Source: Neelides folsomi
Taxonomy: Eukaryota; Arthropoda; Collembola; Neelipleona; Neelidae
Assembly: GCA_034687125.1 (NCBI GenBank)
Contig: JAQGBZ010000623.1
Coordinates: 1 to 25,583 of the forward strand
Length of the DNA stretch: 25,583 nt
Reading direction: 5' to 3'
Shown: in pieces, positions 3,441-25,583 of the stretch
Layout of the letters: each line of letters starts with the position of its first letter
How positions within the stretch are numbered: position 1 is the first letter of the stretch
Made by a program: the position numbers and the translations under genes
Notes under the pieces: model-generated
Database searches by the model: none
What the model saw: only the letters and a program-made list of their open reading frames with translations
Told to the model about the DNA's origin: nothing

Positions 3441-3514
3441 CTATAATATATAATATCTATGTAATATATACCTATGTGAAAATAAATTGAGTAAAAATTT
3501 TGAAGAGATTAAAA

Positions 3515-3802
3515 CAGGGTAGGCAAAAAGGTAGGTTTTTGCTAGGCCGTCGTTGCTTTTTGGTTTAAACTACCTTTTTGCTAATTACTTTTTGAATTTG
3601 TATATTTTCGTACTATAACTTTGTTTAATACAAACAAATAGTATTAAATCGTTAATAATGAGTTAGGTTATACTTCAGCTCATGTTTTTAATATAAAATA
3701 TATTCAAATTAAAAATTTTCCGGAAAATTATTTTTTTATATTCTTGATCATTTAACCAAAAAGCAAAAACGAAAACCCAAAATGCAATCTTTGCCTACAC
3801 TG
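3515..3802. mobile_element. hAT-like MITE, 288 bp, old
   Basis: The left end reads CAGGGTAGGCAAA and the reverse complement of the right end reads CAGTGTAGGCAAA. Inward, both arms share a second block, GCTTTTTGGTT followed by A-rich sequence, so the inverted termini extend for about 50 bp with mismatches. The CAG-G-GGCAAA type end is characteristic of hAT elements. There is no transposase frame. The flanks (GATTAAAA left, ATAAGTGA right) do not form a clear 8-bp target duplication, so the copy is old or the ends are slightly misplaced. Confidence 0.55.
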
Positions 3803-3878
3803 ATAAGTGAATTTATTGTTAACCAAAAGTTTAAATACTTATATAACTATCAGGAATATACAAATCAAATTTTACTAG

Positions 3879-4080
3879 GTATGGCGGTGCACAAAAAACA
3901 AACTATAGGTATTTTGTGCAGTGTCATAAGTACCTATACCTCATCCACTGCTAATTTGCGCTTGAGATTTAGAAGCCCTATTAAGTGCATTATTAAAATA
4001 TTGTTACTAACTGAACTGAGAATTTTAATAATGCACTTGATAGGGCCTCTAAATCTCAAGCGCAAGTTAGCCGTGAATGA
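3879..4080. repeat. foldback cluster with 59-bp inverted arms
   Basis: The main hairpin pairs 3941-3999 with 4022-4080. The inner 50 bp of each arm differ at only three positions around a 22-nt loop. To its left, ATAGGTA at 3905-3911 pairs with TACCTAT at 3931-3937, and GTGCACAAAA near 3888 pairs with TTTTGTGCA at 3912-3920, giving additional hairpins. No protein resemblance is seen in any frame. It could be a MITE, or a long hairpin RNA source if transcribed. Confidence 0.65.
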
Positions 4081-4660
4081 ACAATAGCAAACTTTGATTT
4101 GAATATTCCTAATAATATAATTAATTTCATATTTAAATTAATATTACATAATGTATAGGTTTTATTAACAAATTGATCTTGTTGATTTCAAATCCATAAT
4201 AACCTTCGAGTCAACGCTCAAAATGAAACAATCCCAATAAAAAAATTTATTATGGATTCCAAAATCGTCCAAAAAATAAAAAGATTTTCTGTTTATTGAA
4301 ATCTCAAAATTCTTGTTTATGAGCGAATTAATCGAATATTAAAATTGTTTATTCACACAAAATTTAAATAAAAACACATGAAACATTATATAATTAACAC
4401 ATAAACACAAACATTTATATATTATTTAAAATGTTCCAATATGATATCCGATATTTGGTATAGCATGTATTGATATAATTATCAAATTACAAATTAATAC
4501 TGTTTTGAAATAAAAATGAATATAGAAAAACATTTGGTTATTTAATATCATTAACAATCTTTGTCTAGATGAATTATCACTTAATTATAAAAAATACATA
4601 CCAATAGTAATAAATGCTCTAATAAACACAAGTAAAAATGTAGGATACTTAAATATTTTT
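4081..4660. other. intergenic, AT-rich, no gene seen
   Basis: This lies downstream of calypso, which reads toward it. A short inverted pair (AATCCATAATAA near 4191 and TTATTATGGATT near 4243) is the only structure noticed. No coding segment is supportable. Confidence 0.5.
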
Positions 4661-10609: not shown

Positions 10610-11530
10610 ATGAACAAACTCCCGCTCGCCCTTTTTGTCTGCTGCTGCTTGGCCCTCATACACATCACTTCTTCACAAGTAAAAACCCGCCAGCTTTTAA
10701 ATATTCATAGCCCCCATTATTCTATATTCTTAACTTAACCCCATTTAAATATAATTTAATTAATTTAATTTAATTACAATTAATTTTAATATTATTCCTT
10801 CCAGATCACGTTTTCCCGCGAGTGGGTGCGTGGTAAATATGGTCACGAGAAGGAAGACGACGATCAACTGCCCATGAGAAATGCCCGGGCACCTTCTTAT
10901 TTTGTAAATAGGGTAATTCCTAATTCCTTAATTTTAAATATTTTATAATTTTAAATGCCTTTTTATTTAATTTGATTCGCTATTGCTTTATAATTATATA
11001 GGTAATAATATAGTATATAATTTAATTAAAAATGCTAAGGTCAGTTCAATTTAATTCAGTTAACCGCGAACAAATTATGAATGGTCGAAATCATGTAAAT
11101 ATTTGAATTTGCACTCAAGCGGGCATTTTCTTTGTTCAATTCCACTTGTTTTCGCATTATGTTTTAAACAAGTGGCGTTTTTTGTTTACTGTGTGGATTT
11201 TATAAGGTTGAATGATTTTAGAACGATAGGGGCGAAACTTAATTGATTAATTAAATATAATTCTTGGGGTTCGGGTTATTTAAATTGTAAATTAATTTAA
11301 AGTTTGGTTTAACTTTAGATTTAACAGTTGGTTTAACGCTTGATTTAACGTTTGGTATAACGTTTGATTTAATGTTTGTTCAGGGAGCGGGTGGAAGCCG
11401 AAATTTGAATCGTCTGAAAAAGGAATTCCTCGACTACAAAATCACTCGTCCTGCCTTTGAGCCCGACACCGTGAAAGAGGAATTTTACCCTTTTTACCCT
11501 AAATTTTCTTACGTCCCCATTGTTGACTAA
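10610..11530 (+). CDS. ACP: ACP (AKH/corazonin-related peptide) neuropeptide precursor
   Basis: Exons are 10610-10678, 10805-10912 and 11384-11530, all phase 0, giving 107 residues. Residues 1-22 form a signal peptide (n-region MNKLP, core with CCC, end HITSS). Cleavage leaves Gln23, and the mature sequence reads QITFSREWVR-G-K. Known ACP decapeptides have the form pQVTFSRDWNA-amide, so length, pyroglutamate, TFSR and Trp8 all fit; AKH (usually FSP/FST near the middle) and corazonin (QTFQYSRGW) fit less well. Gly33 would donate the amide. Cleavage follows a single Lys34 rather than the usual KR, with Arg at P3 and P7 as monobasic sites often have. The remainder is an acidic, Tyr/Pro-rich C-terminal peptide without Cys. 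The first intron falls between Gln23 and Ile24 of the hormone. It acts as a secreted neurohormone on an AKH/corazonin-type receptor; its physiology is poorly defined in general. Confidence 0.85.
11302..11373 (+). repeat. six 12-bp tandem repeats abutting the ACP intron 2 acceptor
   Basis: Six units of 12 bp, consensus GTTTGATTTAAC, run without gaps from 11302 to 11373, ten bases before the acceptor AG at 11382-11383. Each unit carries TTTAAC or a one-base variant, resembling a branch-point sequence, so the acceptor has a ladder of candidate branch points. Units differ at one to three positions. Confidence 0.8.
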
Positions 11531-19200: not shown

Positions 19201-19643
19201 AGTATAAGGTGAAAGACCTCTCTCGCTTTAATACATTGCACTTATCTTCTTAATTACTGATAGAACAATACTTTACCCATATTACTTAATAAATAACAAG
19301 ACAATGAGGATGACGAATGAGTAGTTACACAGTGGCGATACAGCAGTTATGCATAAGCTTATTGTTTTTACTTCGGTCCTCTTCTGACTGTGTGCGCCGA
19401 AAAAATCTATTCTGTTTTTATATTTCATGAGGACTAAACCATGACTTCAGATTTGGAGAATTTTAGCCAATTATGCATACCTGTGCATCTATCAATGATC
19501 GCAAATAAAATTAATTAAATTTAATTTATGCAATAGTACAATATTTTTATTATGGCATAAATACTAATAAATACATATTTAATCTATTATAAATACATAT
19601 AATAATATACATATTTACTTTCTAAAGATTAATGAATTATTTT

Positions 19644-19983
19644 GGTCAAAGTCCAGAACGCGGGCCTGTTTCGGGCAACCATTGCCCGAAAAGAGGCAAT
19701 GATTGCCCGAAACGGGCAACGTTGCCCGCCAAAATATTAAGGTTGCCCGACAAAATATGGACGTTGCCCTTTAAGATCTGAACCTTAATTTCATATTCTA
19801 CACGTGATAAATAAAGTAGGTCAAAGTCCAGGACGGGCAATCATTGCCTCTATTCGGGCAATCATTGCCTCTATTCGGGCAATCATTGCCTCTTTTCGGG
19901 CAATCATTGCCTCTTTTCGGGCAATCATTGCCTCTTTTTGGGCAATGGTTGCCCGAAACAGGCCCGCGTTCTGGACTTTGACC
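19644..19983. mobile_element. MULE-like foldback element, 340 bp, 9-bp target duplication
   Basis: The terminal inverted repeats start GGTCAAAGTCCAGAACGCG and extend about 68 bp with one mismatch (19644-19711 and 19916-19983). AATTATTTT lies directly on both sides (19635-19643 and 19984-19992), a perfect 9-bp direct repeat, the usual length for Mutator-like elements. Inside are five 21-bp tandem units (19834-19938, core CGGGCAATCATTGCC), each itself a palindrome, and an internal partial copy of the terminus (GGTCAAAGTCCAGGACG, 19819). There is no transposase. A hAT origin with an 8-bp duplication is the alternative. Confidence 0.8.
19834..19938. repeat. five 21-bp palindromic tandem repeats
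   Basis: Units start at 19834, 19855, 19876, 19897 and 19918. Each holds GGCAAT-C-ATTGCC, six-base arms around one base. Because 21 is a multiple of three, the array stays open in a frame and gives a repetitive but meaningless translation (RAIIASF/I). Confidence 0.9.
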
Positions 19984-19992
19984 AATTATTTT

Positions 19993-20336: not shown

Positions 20337-21696
20337 TTATAAAAGTTCCTCGGGCATTGCATTAGAATGAATTACTTTTTCTATCACTGGATACCATTGA
20401 TTTCGGTCATTTGTAAAAATTTGAAAATCTTTCAATCCCCTTGGTGAAATGATATTCTGAATAATTTGAAATATAATTGTAAAAAATGGTGGAGCTAAAA
20501 AAATAACAAATAATCATTTTAGATTTTATCTTTAAATACTAAATTAACCATAATTTTATACCTAACTACGAGTATAATACAATGTATTTACCATTGATGA
20601 TAAAAACGTGTTTTGCATGAAGGGGATAATTATTTTCATAAATTCTCATCATTTCTGCAATTGCTCCCAATGCTTTAAAGTTAAAAACGAAAATTAATTT
20701 TGTTTAATATGTATCAAGTGATATTAAAATTGTATAGAAATAATATATTTAGATTATTTATGTTTTATGTGTGTAATATAAATATTGTGTTTATACTTCT
20801 TATTGACGTCACTTGTCTGATTGATATTCCTTTCAAATCAAAAATTGCAATCCATTGCCCAAGCGTTTCATTCTTTTTTGAATCTAAATTGATCGCTTTG
20901 TACGCGCCTTCAATCATCCGTGTATATTCTTTAAGAAAATCAGCCCGGTGACCATTAAAAACGGCTTTGCGAGCGTCCCACAATCCCATTTGTGAATAAA
21001 GAACTAAAAGGTGAAATAATTAAATTTATTATTCTTATTAAATCTCTATAATAAACTTGTTTCATTATGAATATTGTATTATTTATATTTTGTACCTGGA
21101 TATCCTTCATTTGTAAATCCGTTAACTCTATGGGGATATTCTCCAGAATTAAATCCACAAGCTGCCTGCCAATCTTCAATATTTTCAATGTCATTTTTCT
21201 GTCTCCATTGAAGAGATTTTAATAAAAGGGTTGATGATTTTTCTATGTTTCCATCAGCAGCTAATAGAATATGAATATTGAATTTTTAAATTGTCATTGA
21301 TATAAAATTGAATAATTGAATAAAAAATACTTTTGACCCAATTGTTCAAAATTTCATCTGGAGTCCTTTGAAAAAATTCCTTTAAAAATGTTCTTTCTTC
21401 TTTATTCAGCCCATTGCTTTTGGTTCCGAGTAAATCTTTGAACTAAAATATTTTACAACAATAATTTTCAAATTTAAATCCTCATTTTAAATAATTAAAA
21501 AACGTAACCAATCATTATGAATAATAAAAAGTTATTATTTATTATTACTATTATAATGTAATTATTATCAATATATGTAGATTATTTAATAGTTTAATAC
21601 CTTTTCAACCGTTGCTTTGTCACTTGAATTGAGTAAACAATTTCCATTATGTACTGCAGCAAATATTAAAACAAACACTAAGGAATATGAAAACAT
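20337..21696 (-). CDS. secreted CRAL-TRIO (Sec14-like) lipid-binding protein
   Basis: Exons on the minus strand are 21696-21601, 21442-21331, 21260-21096, 21003-20797, 20672-20592 and 20494-20337. The first junction is phase 0, the others are phase 1, giving 272 residues. A signal peptide (MFSYSLVFVLIFAAVHNGN) precedes a CRAL-TRIO-N helical region (KEERTFLKEFFQR ... LLLKSLQWRQKNDIENI), then the lipid-binding domain (GFTNEGYPVLYSQMGLWDARKAV; LGQWIAIFDLKGIS; MMRIYENNYPLHAKHVFIINAPPFF). Family members bind small hydrophobic ligands such as retinal, tocopherol or phosphoinositides and are normally cytosolic; a signal peptide makes this one secreted or lumenal. The C-terminus stops at AMPEELL, just short of the usual Gly-Gly that ends the fold. 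It is a tandem paralogue of the CRAL-TRIO exons at 22766-24365, with shared intron positions except one. Confidence 0.9.
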
Positions 21697-22765: not shown

Positions 22766-24365
22766 TTAATTTTTTCCTCCAAGTTGAATAGGAAGAGCAT
22801 CAATGGGAATTCTCTGAATTAACGGCGGTTTCCAATCCTTTTCATTCGGCCCAGTTACAATAATTGTCTCAACAGTGGCTTGAGTTAAAAATGATTTAAT
22901 GTGCCAAAAAATGTGAGGAAAATAAGTCGGACCTAATTAAAGGTAAAATAATAATTCCATTTAATGAAAATAATTATAATACCATTTATATTTAATAACA
23001 TTATAAAGCATTATATTATAACTATAACTTACCTCTTATGATAAAAACGTTGGTTGGATAAAGAGCAAAAGCAGATACAATAATTCTATAATATTTACCA
23101 GCAGTTTGTATTGCTAAAATTAAAAAGAAATACTCATATTTAAATTAATATGTAAATTATAATAAAGAAAACTTGATATTATCAAAATCTTGATTTTTAT
23201 ATAAGAACATATAAATAGCTTATAAGATTATTAATATTAATTTACCTGCTACTGAAGAAACTAAAGTTGATCTAAAATTATTAAAATCTATTATGAAGTA
23301 AAAGTTTCCAACTGGGAGTCCAGAAGAAGGATCAATTTTCTTTGAAGCTTCCACAGTTGTAAATTCCAACATTTGAGTAACCCATTTTAATAATTCTTCT
23401 TTTTGACCTTTAGACGCCGCTTCTCGAATATTCCAATTTCCCATTTCCATGTATAAAACTAATTTTAAATCATTTGATTTTCACCATTACATTACAATAC
23501 ATGTAGCAGAATCTTAACGTTATCGTAAACCGTAGATATGTATTTAACTAAAAATTAATTCTATGTTTTCGTTAATTTAAATACCCGGTTTGTTTTCATT
23601 AGTAAATCCAGTTATTCTCCATGGATATCTATCTGGAAAATCGCTTGGAAATTCCCGCTGAAGTATATTTTCAATTTCATTTTCCATTCTCCAATTCAAA
23701 GTCTATTGGAAGAAAAGAATAAATAAACTTTGTAGTAGTTTAATGTTTTTAGTTCATTCACTTCCTTAATCATAACTACGATTTATTTTAAATTTAAAAA
23801 TAAATTCATTTCAAAGAATTTTGTGCATAGAGCATTAAAATAAGTAATTATAATTTCTCTTCTATTATTTCTTGGTAATAATGTTAATTTAAAATGTATA
23901 CTTTCAATATCTGTTTTTCTGCCCCTTCCATGTCATATCCAGCATCTTGTAAGATAAAAATTAATGATTTAACTACAATTTCACACTATAAGTTAAGTAA
24001 TTCCAATTATTTTAAAATAATTGGAATTACTAATCAGGATTGGATAAAGTAGAGAGATTACACAAATATATATAAAATACGAACATTTAATAAAGTTGAT
24101 TAAAATGAGGTCGGAATTTTTATTTAGCCATTCAGTTAGATACGTTCTCTCATCCAAGCTCATGTTTCCTTTCCTCTCAAGCGTCTCCCTAAGCTGTTTA
24201 AAATAAATAAGTTTAAAAGAATACATATATGAATGTATGTATTTATTATAAAATCCTAATATTAAATATTACACCCATATATTGAAGATCGTAAATATAT
24301 TAAAGATAACCATAATAGTTAGGTTACCTCTCTAGCAATACTCAAATCTTCGCTAAGATATTGAT
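22766..24365 (-). CDS. second CRAL-TRIO domain; probable 3' part of a protease-LDLRA-CRAL-TRIO gene
   Basis: Exons on the minus strand are 24365-24328, 24193-24085, 23945-23902, 23702-23585, 23458-23246, 23113-23033 and 22932-22766, giving 256 residues after the joining codon. The N-terminal helix reads YLSEDLSIARE then LRETLERKGNMSLDERTYLTEW, continuing smoothly across the first junction. CRAL-TRIO hallmarks follow: AGYDMEGAEKQILKTLNWR, GFTNENKPVLYMEMGNWNIREA, FYFIIDFNNF, LYPTNVFII, and the end ALPIQLGG. The first exon begins in phase 1 after an acceptor, with an in-frame TGA just upstream, so it cannot be the gene's start. No signal-peptide exon is found; the only upstream exon with a matching phase-1 donor is the LDLRA exon, 66 nt away. 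The donor after exon 24193-24085 (GTTCGT) is weak. Compared with its neighbour paralogue it has one extra intron (after ILK). An in-frame ATG at 24226 could give a non-secreted form lacking that helix. Confidence 0.88.
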
Positions 24366-24431
24366 CTGTTCATTTAAGATAACGATTAATAGATTTGAAT
24401 AAAAGTAAAAAAACCGTTATCTATTTATGAC
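24366..24431 (-). other. 66-nt intron linking LDLRA and CRAL-TRIO exons
   Basis: The donor is G|GTCATA (GT at 24431-24430) and the acceptor AACAG (AG at 24367-24366). Both exons are in phase 1, and the join makes a GAT codon (Asp). If the intron is kept, translation reads GHK and stops at TAG (24423-24421). The length is in the range of other short introns in this window. The donor is below consensus. Confidence 0.6.
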
Positions 24432-25583
24432 CTGTTTCAGTAGTAGTAGTCGTCGTTTGAGGAATTCGTGTTGTTCTTCTTGTTGTTCTTGGAGTAGTTT
24501 GTTGATCAATGTTAGATGGTTTTGATTCTTTACAATTTGGAAAACATTTTGAACAATCAATTTCATCAGATCCATCTTTGCAATCATTAACTTCATTACA
24601 AACTGAACCATAAGGAATACAACGATCATTTTTGCACCTGAATTGGTTTTTACAATTTTCACAATTCATTTCGTCAGATCCATCTTTGCAATCATTTTCA
24701 TAATCACACACGTGGGACAAATCAACACAATTTCCATTTTTGCATCTAAATTGATTTATTTGACAATTCCCGCAATTTGCTTCATCCGATCCATCGTGGC
24801 AATCATTTGATCCATCACAAATTGAACTTCCATTTAAACAATATCTTTGAGATGAACAAAGAAAAAAAGTTTGATGGCAAAATTTTTCACATCCAAATTC
24901 ATCAGACCCATCGCCACAATCATTTTGTGAATTACAAACTTTCTCTTCTGCCATGCATTTATCATTTTTACATTTAAATTCATTTTCACCGCATGGATAA
25001 CATCCGATTTCATCGGAAGTATCCCCGCAATCATTTTCATTATCACAATGGAAAAGACTTGGGATTTTATTTTCATTGCTACAGAGAAATTCTTCGTTTC
25101 CGCACATTACAGTTGAATCCTGGCTTTCACCATTTCTACTTAAAATCTCCAAATCCCTTAATTAAAATATTTCATAATAATTTTTATTAATGGTTTCTAG
25201 ATTTCCTTATGATCGAATAATTATTTAATTATTAAACTTTTAATATTTACCTCATTGGATTATGTTTAATCCATGAATAGAAATAAGAAACGGACGTGAA
25301 ATAACTTTCGATTTCGATACCTTGACCACAAGAGTCTGGACTAAAGGCTGAAATTCCGCAAAGTGAATTGTGACCTCGATTATCTAAATGTAAATTACAA
25401 AATATCTTTTAAATACATTGTTAATAAAACAAAACTTTCTTCTAAACATATTTCTTATTTCTCAATTTGGTTTCTATATGTTATAAATGTGATTTAAAAA
25501 AATATTTACTTTTGCAAATCATTGGACCTCCAGAGTCGCCAGAACAGATTGATTTCAATGATTTTGTTCCACAAATTATACTG
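24421..25583 (-). CDS. S1 serine protease with C-terminal LDLR class A repeats, 5' end outside window
   Basis: Partial: it enters from the right edge. Exons on the minus strand are 25583-25510, 25383-25251 and 25156-24432 (or to the TAG at 24421 if the next intron is retained). The first carries the catalytic serine motif CSGDSGGPMIC; the residue six before that Ser is Ser, so the S1 pocket looks chymotrypsin-like rather than trypsin-like. The second completes the protease fold (VSYFYSWIKHNP). The third has five LDLRA modules with the CDxxNDCxDGSDE calcium cage; the first lacks its third Cys, the other four have all six. A Thr/Arg/Pro-rich, mucin-like segment (TTPRTTRRTTRIPQTTTTTTE) follows. 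Modular secreted proteases of this kind act in extracellular cascades, immunity or digestion. His and Asp of the triad lie outside the window. Confidence 0.93.

Follow-up and report, generated by a model that had tools for sequence, protein, structure and literature searches.

A probable fusion of S1 protease, LDLRA and Sec14/CRAL-TRIO domains recurring in the genome of the springtail Neelides folsomi

Background

Sec14/CRAL-TRIO proteins are intracellular lipid carriers, and S1 serine proteases bearing LDLRA repeats are extracellular cascade enzymes. The present work concerns a locus of the springtail Neelides folsomi at which two adjacent coding units, one of each kind, very probably form one gene, comprised of an S1 domain (chymotrypsin fold), five LDLRA repeats, a linker and a C-terminal Sec14/CRAL-TRIO domain, as read from the sequence. 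The locus lies on contig C623 (JAQGBZ010000623.1, positions 22,766 to 25,583, negative strand). The window referred to throughout is this entire contig, 25,583 bp long, within an assembly of 75 Mb and 840 contigs.

S1 and LDLRA domains in one chain are known from Nudel, MSP/HP14 and the LDL-bearing serine peptidases and homologues (SerPs) of Tenebrio molitor (PMC11172050). As given in the portions of that source used here, the T. molitor inventory holds 269 serine peptidases and homologues, and LDLRA occurs with many partner domains. Partners listed there for mosaic S1 proteins are clip, CUB, CBM, SRCR, Fz, PAN, TSP, Sushi, SEA, EGF and GD, whereas in the fused genes the partner is CRAL-TRIO; the word CRAL has no occurrence in the main text of PMC11172050. 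Nudel likewise has LDLRA repeats after a protease domain, but its order, in the same portions (PMC11172050), is LDLRA-protease-LDLRA-inactive protease-LDLRA, as opposed to one N-terminal S1 domain, five LDLRA repeats and CRAL-TRIO in the fused genes.

The nearest solved relative of the fused CRAL-TRIO domain is SEC14L2 (7.2e-30, profile positions 35-248 of 250), followed by SEC14L4 and SEC14L3, with CRALBP and alpha-tocopherol transfer protein as more distant matches. Like the Sec14/CRAL-TRIO proteins, the fused domain scores above the Pfam CRAL_TRIO cut-off. SEC14L2 carries a GOLD domain, whereas the fused protein ends right after CRAL-TRIO with no C-terminal GOLD domain, and the fused domain further differs from Sec14 proteins in sitting behind LDLRA repeats and in being almost cysteine-free. 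The closest stand-alone genes by sequence, among those examined, are a tandem neighbour within the window and genes on contigs C597, C493 and C609, which share about 30% identity and a phase-0 intron after the first helix with the fused genes; these have a signal-peptide-like start, in place of which the fused genes have S1-LDLRA.

We know of no other place in which an S1-CRAL-TRIO architecture is catalogued. Among the papers listed by searches of the open-access literature (bioRxiv preprints not included) on this architecture and on secreted CRAL-TRIO proteins, no title or abstract start describes such a protein, and a word search of a paper on butterfly CRAL-TRIO genes (PMC5739039) gave nothing on secretion or protein fusion. 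Searches of 5.8 billion proteins gave no match at E <= 1 (1183 candidates) or at E <= 0.01 (3783 candidates). This carries little weight: the same alignment does find SEC14L2 in the PDB, so that animal proteins seem to be scarce or absent in the collection. The parts of the fused gene are all known, and what is new is their arrangement.

Structure of the gene in the window

The features of the gene are listed below, with lengths in copies on four other contigs (C254, C171, C709 and C232) where they bear comparison.

25510..25583, negative strand: S1 protease exon truncated at the contig end and ending in phase 1, with the motif of the catalytic serine, CSGDSGGPMICK; Pfam Trypsin
25251..25383, negative strand: final S1-domain exon, 133 nt, ending in phase 2; also 133 nt in C254, C709 and C232, 154 nt in C171
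24432..25156, negative strand: single exon holding five LDLRA repeats and a Thr-rich linker, ending in phase 1
24366..24431, negative strand: intron, 66 nt, GTCATA...AACAG; retention leads to a stop at TAG 24423-24421
24328..24365, negative strand: linker exon DQYLSEDLSIARE, 38 nt, phase 1 to phase 0
24085..24193, negative strand: CRAL-TRIO exon 1 (LRETLERKGNMSLDERTYL...), 109 nt; 112 nt in the remaining four copies
23902..23945, negative strand: CRAL-TRIO exon 2; 44 nt in all five copies
23585..23702, negative strand: CRAL-TRIO exon 3; 118 nt in all five copies
23246..23458, negative strand: CRAL-TRIO exon 4, 213 nt; 204 nt in C171
23033..23113, negative strand: CRAL-TRIO exon 5; 81 nt in all five copies
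22766..22932, negative strand: final CRAL-TRIO exon, stop codon 22768-22766; Pfam CRAL_TRIO

The front end of the S1 domain lies off the contig, only the final two S1 exons (25583-25251, negative strand) being present. The LDLRA exon ends at 24432 in phase 1 (...GAAACAG/gtcataaa, the slash marking the exon boundary), and the exon at 24365-24328 reads ag/AT CAA TAT CTT AGC GAA GAT TTG AGT ATT GCT AGA GAG/gtaacc, with a TGA in frame ahead of it at 24372-24370. Including this linker exon, the CRAL-TRIO unit consists of seven exons, the last of which closes with the stop at 22768-22766, and it has no in-frame start codon before the methionine of MSLDERTYL. An earlier sequence-only reading of this DNA had given the LDLRA exon end at 24432, the 66-nt intron and the exon 24365-24328, and its coordinates and phases are exact to the base; its claim that the CRAL-TRIO unit has no start exon of its own is likewise borne out by the TGA and by the lack of an ATG ahead of MSLDERTYL.

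Four further fused genes

The best CRAL-TRIO relatives off the window contig lie on C709, C254, C19, C411, C232, C448 and C171, and four of these seven (C709, C254, C232 and C171) are just downstream of an S1-LDLRA gene on the same strand, in the order S1, five LDLRA repeats, linker, CRAL-TRIO. The assembly was searched for CRAL-TRIO a second time with the C709 domain as query. Because the same fusion recurs in four other genes, an error of gene prediction is very unlikely, and the three-domain fusion proposed earlier from the window stands, with matching phases throughout and, in C709, a join without an intron. An assembly chimera joining two unrelated stretches, which a short contig (25,583 bp) ending within a gene might suggest, has a practically negligible probability: the four other contigs have the same order in diverged sequence (CRAL-TRIO identity 42-59%), and five chimeras at homologous positions would be needed.

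Exon phases are identical at every shared junction across the five copies. In the four further copies the final S1 exon (133 nt; C171, 154 nt) is followed by one LDLRA exon, and the CRAL-TRIO exons of all five measure 112 (window 109), 44, 118, 213 (C171 204), 81 and 158-206 nt. The LDLRA exons of C254, C171 and C232 end in phase 1 and lead into linker exons of 80, 89 and 65 nt, which pass into CRAL-TRIO in phase 0. C709 has no phase-1 intron: its exon 3445-4207 runs from the LDLRA repeats straight on through the linker and DEMILIKN and closes at the same phase-0 donor. In all the joined coding sequences the only stop is the terminal one. The full-length protein is estimated at roughly 80-95 kDa, for 743-810 residues. 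From the last LDLRA cysteine the C709 frame stays open for about 54 codons, with a chance of ~0.011 by base composition; in the other four copies each linker exon has a length of 2 mod 3, and these exons hold 88 open codons together (chance ~0.0006), a figure that is indicative only, the exons having been chosen to fit.

With the LDLRA exon of the window as query and all 97 candidates scored, exactly five near-full-length matches were found (60-100% identity), the next matches longer than 120 residues reaching at most 56%. Behind all five of these LDLRA exons stands a same-strand CRAL-TRIO gene of the fused group. A whole-protein Pfam scan covered the window copy, C254 and C709, and gave five LDLRA stretches (PF00057) in each, with 3.2e-46 for those of the joined window protein. 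Trypsin (PF00089) was matched at 2e-41 in C254, at 3.7e-30 in C709 and, by its C-terminal part only, at 1.9e-8 in the window; the S1 domains of C171 and C232 were matched exon by exon. CRAL_TRIO scores are 60.8 bits (window, 1.7e-16), 59.8 bits (C254) and 52.1 bits (C709) against a curated cut-off of 22.6.

These data also bear on a reading of the locus as two tandem genes duplicated as a pair, in which TAG 24423-24421 would close the protease, with an independent CRAL-TRIO start at an unseen leader exon or at the internal methionine of MSLDERTYL. A stop does lie 3 to 23 codons past the donor in the four intron-bearing copies, a family of stand-alone CRAL-TRIO neighbours exists, and in C709, C232 and C171 the stretch that precedes the phase-0 intron contains a methionine. 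However, a single frame runs through the join in C709, the linker exons of C254 and C623 contain no methionine, the phase of the linker exon is kept in all copies, similarity to the neighbour family continues upstream of MSLDE, and the 55 nt between stop and linker exon in the window are too few for a leader exon. Two separate genes are thus very unlikely.

At C365:4136-4693 an S1 piece (54% identical to C254) directly precedes two CRAL-TRIO pieces, of which the first is 60% and the second 76% identical to C709, with no LDLRA match among the 97 of 97 candidates scored. This is likely, judging by these pieces, an internally deleted relic of a sixth fused copy.

Splice sites and selective constraint at the join

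The donor of the linker intron in the window, CAGGTCATAA, has a score of 6.45, the leave-one-out median of 53 donors being 6.78, and ranks first of the 11 GTs within 24620-24367. The intron's length of 66 nt is within the range of these genes, 10 of 53 introns measuring 60-70 nt. The third intron of C254 (1,990 nt; L030:4194-6103) stands apart from the other 52 introns measured (60-199 nt); it contains long inverted arms, among them arms of 136 nt with 93% complementarity, and resembles an inserted mobile element of foldback type.

Ratios of nonsynonymous to synonymous substitution (dN/dS) were calculated pairwise among the five copies by the method of Nei and Gojobori, with synonymous sites near saturation. 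Values are 0.13-0.39 for CRAL-TRIO (median 0.24; 9 of 10 pairs calculable), 0.06-0.18 for LDLRA (8 of 10 pairs) and 0.05-0.33 for the shared S1 end (all 10 pairs), so that all three domains are under constraint.

Several observations weigh against a single fused gene. The window donor has C at +3, a rare letter (2 of 53), and the linker acceptor is weak, fifth lowest of 53. The linker, with dN/dS of 0.50-1.80 (9 of 10 pairs), is under no clear constraint, and the junction offers only 9 codons, too few for such an estimate. That no signal peptide was found, as treated below, fits badly with disulphide-rich extracellular modules. Each half also has close relatives without the other. C411 (42308-43483) and C448 (31639-32243) hold CRAL-TRIO exons 46-54% identical to C709, about as close as those of fused members, and no S1 match (best 90 of 171 candidates) or LDLRA match (97 of 97 candidates) was found on either contig. 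The S1 domains of C148 and C579 are close to those of the fused genes (72% and 67% in the first exon) and come with one or two LDLRA repeats; behind them no CRAL-TRIO match was found at E <= 0.01 within about 4 kb.

The weak acceptor and rare donor letter, together with the shortest linker exon (38 nt) and a missing 5' end, could also mean that the window copy alone has decayed, its join broken and its CRAL-TRIO part a leftover while the other four are fused. Against this, every CRAL-TRIO exon is open and in phase, the donor score is near the median, and dN/dS between the window copy and the others is 0.22-0.27 in CRAL-TRIO (4 of 4 pairs) and 0.06-0.17 in LDLRA (3 of 4 pairs calculable), making decay extremely improbable.

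Alternatively, both forms may be made, the intron acting as a switch: retention would give an S1-LDLRA protein ending ...TETGHK, and splicing the lipid-binding form. The stop past the donor in 4 of 4 intron-bearing copies, the mixed strength of the window splice sites and the shortness of the intron (66 nt) are in keeping with this. Intronic stops are, however, expected by chance at an A+T content of ~71% (window composition), and C709 has no linker intron, so any switch would not be general; such regulation is considered unlikely.

Catalytic residues of the S1 domain

AAHC, DIAVI and GDSGGP are all present in C254 and C232, giving a full catalytic triad. The window copy has GDSGGP, its His and Asp regions lying off the contig. 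The catalytic serine is lost in two of the five copies, the serine motif reading DDVGW in C171 and NQLGG in C709. The earlier designation as a protease therefore does not hold for the family in general. By what is taken as the usual numbering, position 189 holds Ser in C254 and C232 as well as in the window copy, which would suggest a chymotrypsin-like pocket. The nearest solved S1 structures are coagulation factor IX and elastases (best 1.1e-23). Preceding the I-G/S start of the S1 domain are Q, H, L and H (C254, C171, C709 and C232), with no Arg/Lys activation site. According to the portions used of PMC11172050, some S1 proteins are cleaved after residues other than Arg/Lys, and arthropod mosaic S1 proteases, like the fused family, include active beside inactive members.

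Signal peptides and cysteines

As the N-terminus of the window copy is off the contig, leaders were assessed in the four complete copies, which start MAVSIYS, MSIPIQL, MAISINP and MAVPSLF. Their best hydropathy is 0.81-1.37, compared with 2.39-3.22 in two leader-bearing S1 genes, and by simple hydropathy, no dedicated predictor being used, a signal peptide is present in 0 of 4. In the four complete copies together with C148, C579 and two C332 genes, the start methionine lies about 14-20 residues before the S1 core, with best windows of 0.81-1.83. By contrast, several LDL-bearing proteins of Tenebrio have a signal peptide or transmembrane span, according to the portions used of PMC11172050. The description of the product as a secreted protein thus finds no support in the starts of these copies.

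No shared leader exon was found in the 842-2476 nt upstream of the four copies, and no acceptor position is conserved. Hydrophobic ATG frames upstream number one in C254, two in C171, three in C709 and none in C232. A hidden upstream leader exon was rejected, since these frames are not shared between copies and no conserved acceptor serves them. In C254 and C232 the ATG is preceded by an in-frame stop, at a distance of 12 and 6 nt respectively, and the interval contains no AG, though the start itself does in both (ATGGCAG), unlike that of C709 and C171. An upstream block common to C148 and C579 (364 columns, 86.5% identical, with a hydrophobic frame) was also rejected as a leader, no conserved acceptor joining it to the ATG. 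Either a distant leader exon was missed or the family is leaderless.

The CRAL-TRIO part holds 0, 0, 0, 1 and 0 cysteines in the five copies, versus 36-40 in the front half, and the leader-bearing stand-alone family is also cysteine-poor (0-1). Such near-absence is what would be expected of a domain folding in an oxidising place, a point that is only suggestive. One could imagine a lineage-specific leaderless family of proteases and pseudoproteases that enters an oxidising compartment by a non-classical route and links its S1 domain to LDLRA docking and a Sec14 lipid pocket, lipid loading controlling where or whether the protease or the inactive copy binds its target outside the cytosol, the usual site of Sec14 proteins, though this is rather unlikely.

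Origin of the fusion

Within the window, the tandem neighbour is the following gene.

20337..21696, negative strand: stand-alone CRAL-TRIO gene of six exons that opens with a signal-peptide-like segment, MFSYSLVFVLIFAAVHNGNC, and shares 30% identity with the fused domain; a relative lying outside the fusion

The neighbour and the genes on C597, C493 and C609 all start with a strongly hydrophobic leader (hydropathy 3.32-3.36), in keeping with the signal peptide noted before at 20337-21696. At C493:3082-10533 several stand-alone CRAL-TRIO genes akin to the neighbour stand in tandem.

In a tree of nine CRAL-TRIO sequences, from which C411 and C448 were left out, a branch supported at 100/100 separates the five fused domains from the neighbour, C597, C493 and C609. 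It had been proposed that the fusion arose at this locus by capture of an ancestral secreted CRAL-TRIO gene that had lost its leader; recent capture from the tandem neighbour is rejected, the two lying on opposite sides of this branch. Five independent fusions are unsupported by the tree of nine. Because of the 100/100 split between fused and leader-bearing domains, a single older fusion that was later duplicated, giving at least five genes, fits better and would be the simplest history. A CRAL-TRIO gene related to the neighbour's kind would then have become attached at the 3' end to an S1-LDLRA gene, the tail of which replaced the leader.

The 3' end of the S1-LDLRA family is variable: in C148 a long Pro/Ser/Glu-rich tail follows LDLRA, and in C579 another S1 start, RIVGG..., lies further on. 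These two may have lost a CRAL-TRIO domain, a point on which an S1 tree gave no resolved branching.

Other features of the window

A neuropeptide-like precursor is found at 10610-10912 (positive strand), with a leader MNKLPLALFVCCCLALIHITSSQ (10610-10678), an intron and then ITFSREWVRGKYGHEKEDDD... (10805-10912). Its Pfam Adipokin_hormo score of 20.0 bits is below the cut-off of 22.9, and its ITFSREW gave no match in a text search of the open-access literature. An inverted repeat at 19642-19985, with arms of 71 nt (19642-19712 and 19915-19985) that are 99% complementary, encloses arrays whose 21-bp unit is based on GGGCAA/TTGCCC and resembles a small foldback element. A scan of 24300-24500 for bacterial-type promoters and terminators found nothing, as did Rfam over the whole window.

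Possible function and significance

A mechanism may tentatively be put forward by analogy with the families involved, and is possible rather than probable. The LDLRA repeats would form a calcium-stabilised docking stalk, and the CRAL-TRIO domain would bind a hydrophobic ligand. Some copies of the S1 domain would be proteolytic, while those lacking the catalytic serine would serve as a module for binding. Between LDLRA and CRAL-TRIO lies a fast-evolving, Thr- or acid-rich linker. The effect of the fused protein, wherever it acts, would be to direct proteolysis or protein binding towards a partner loaded with lipid.

Natural controls are available in the same genome, namely S1-LDLRA relatives that lack CRAL-TRIO and CRAL-TRIO relatives that lack S1. 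The leaderless start, if upheld by transcripts, would be a separate puzzle. As a duplicated and constrained family, the fused genes may offer a handle on two questions, the capacity of a Sec14 fold to function outside the cytosol and the possible steering of a protease by lipid.

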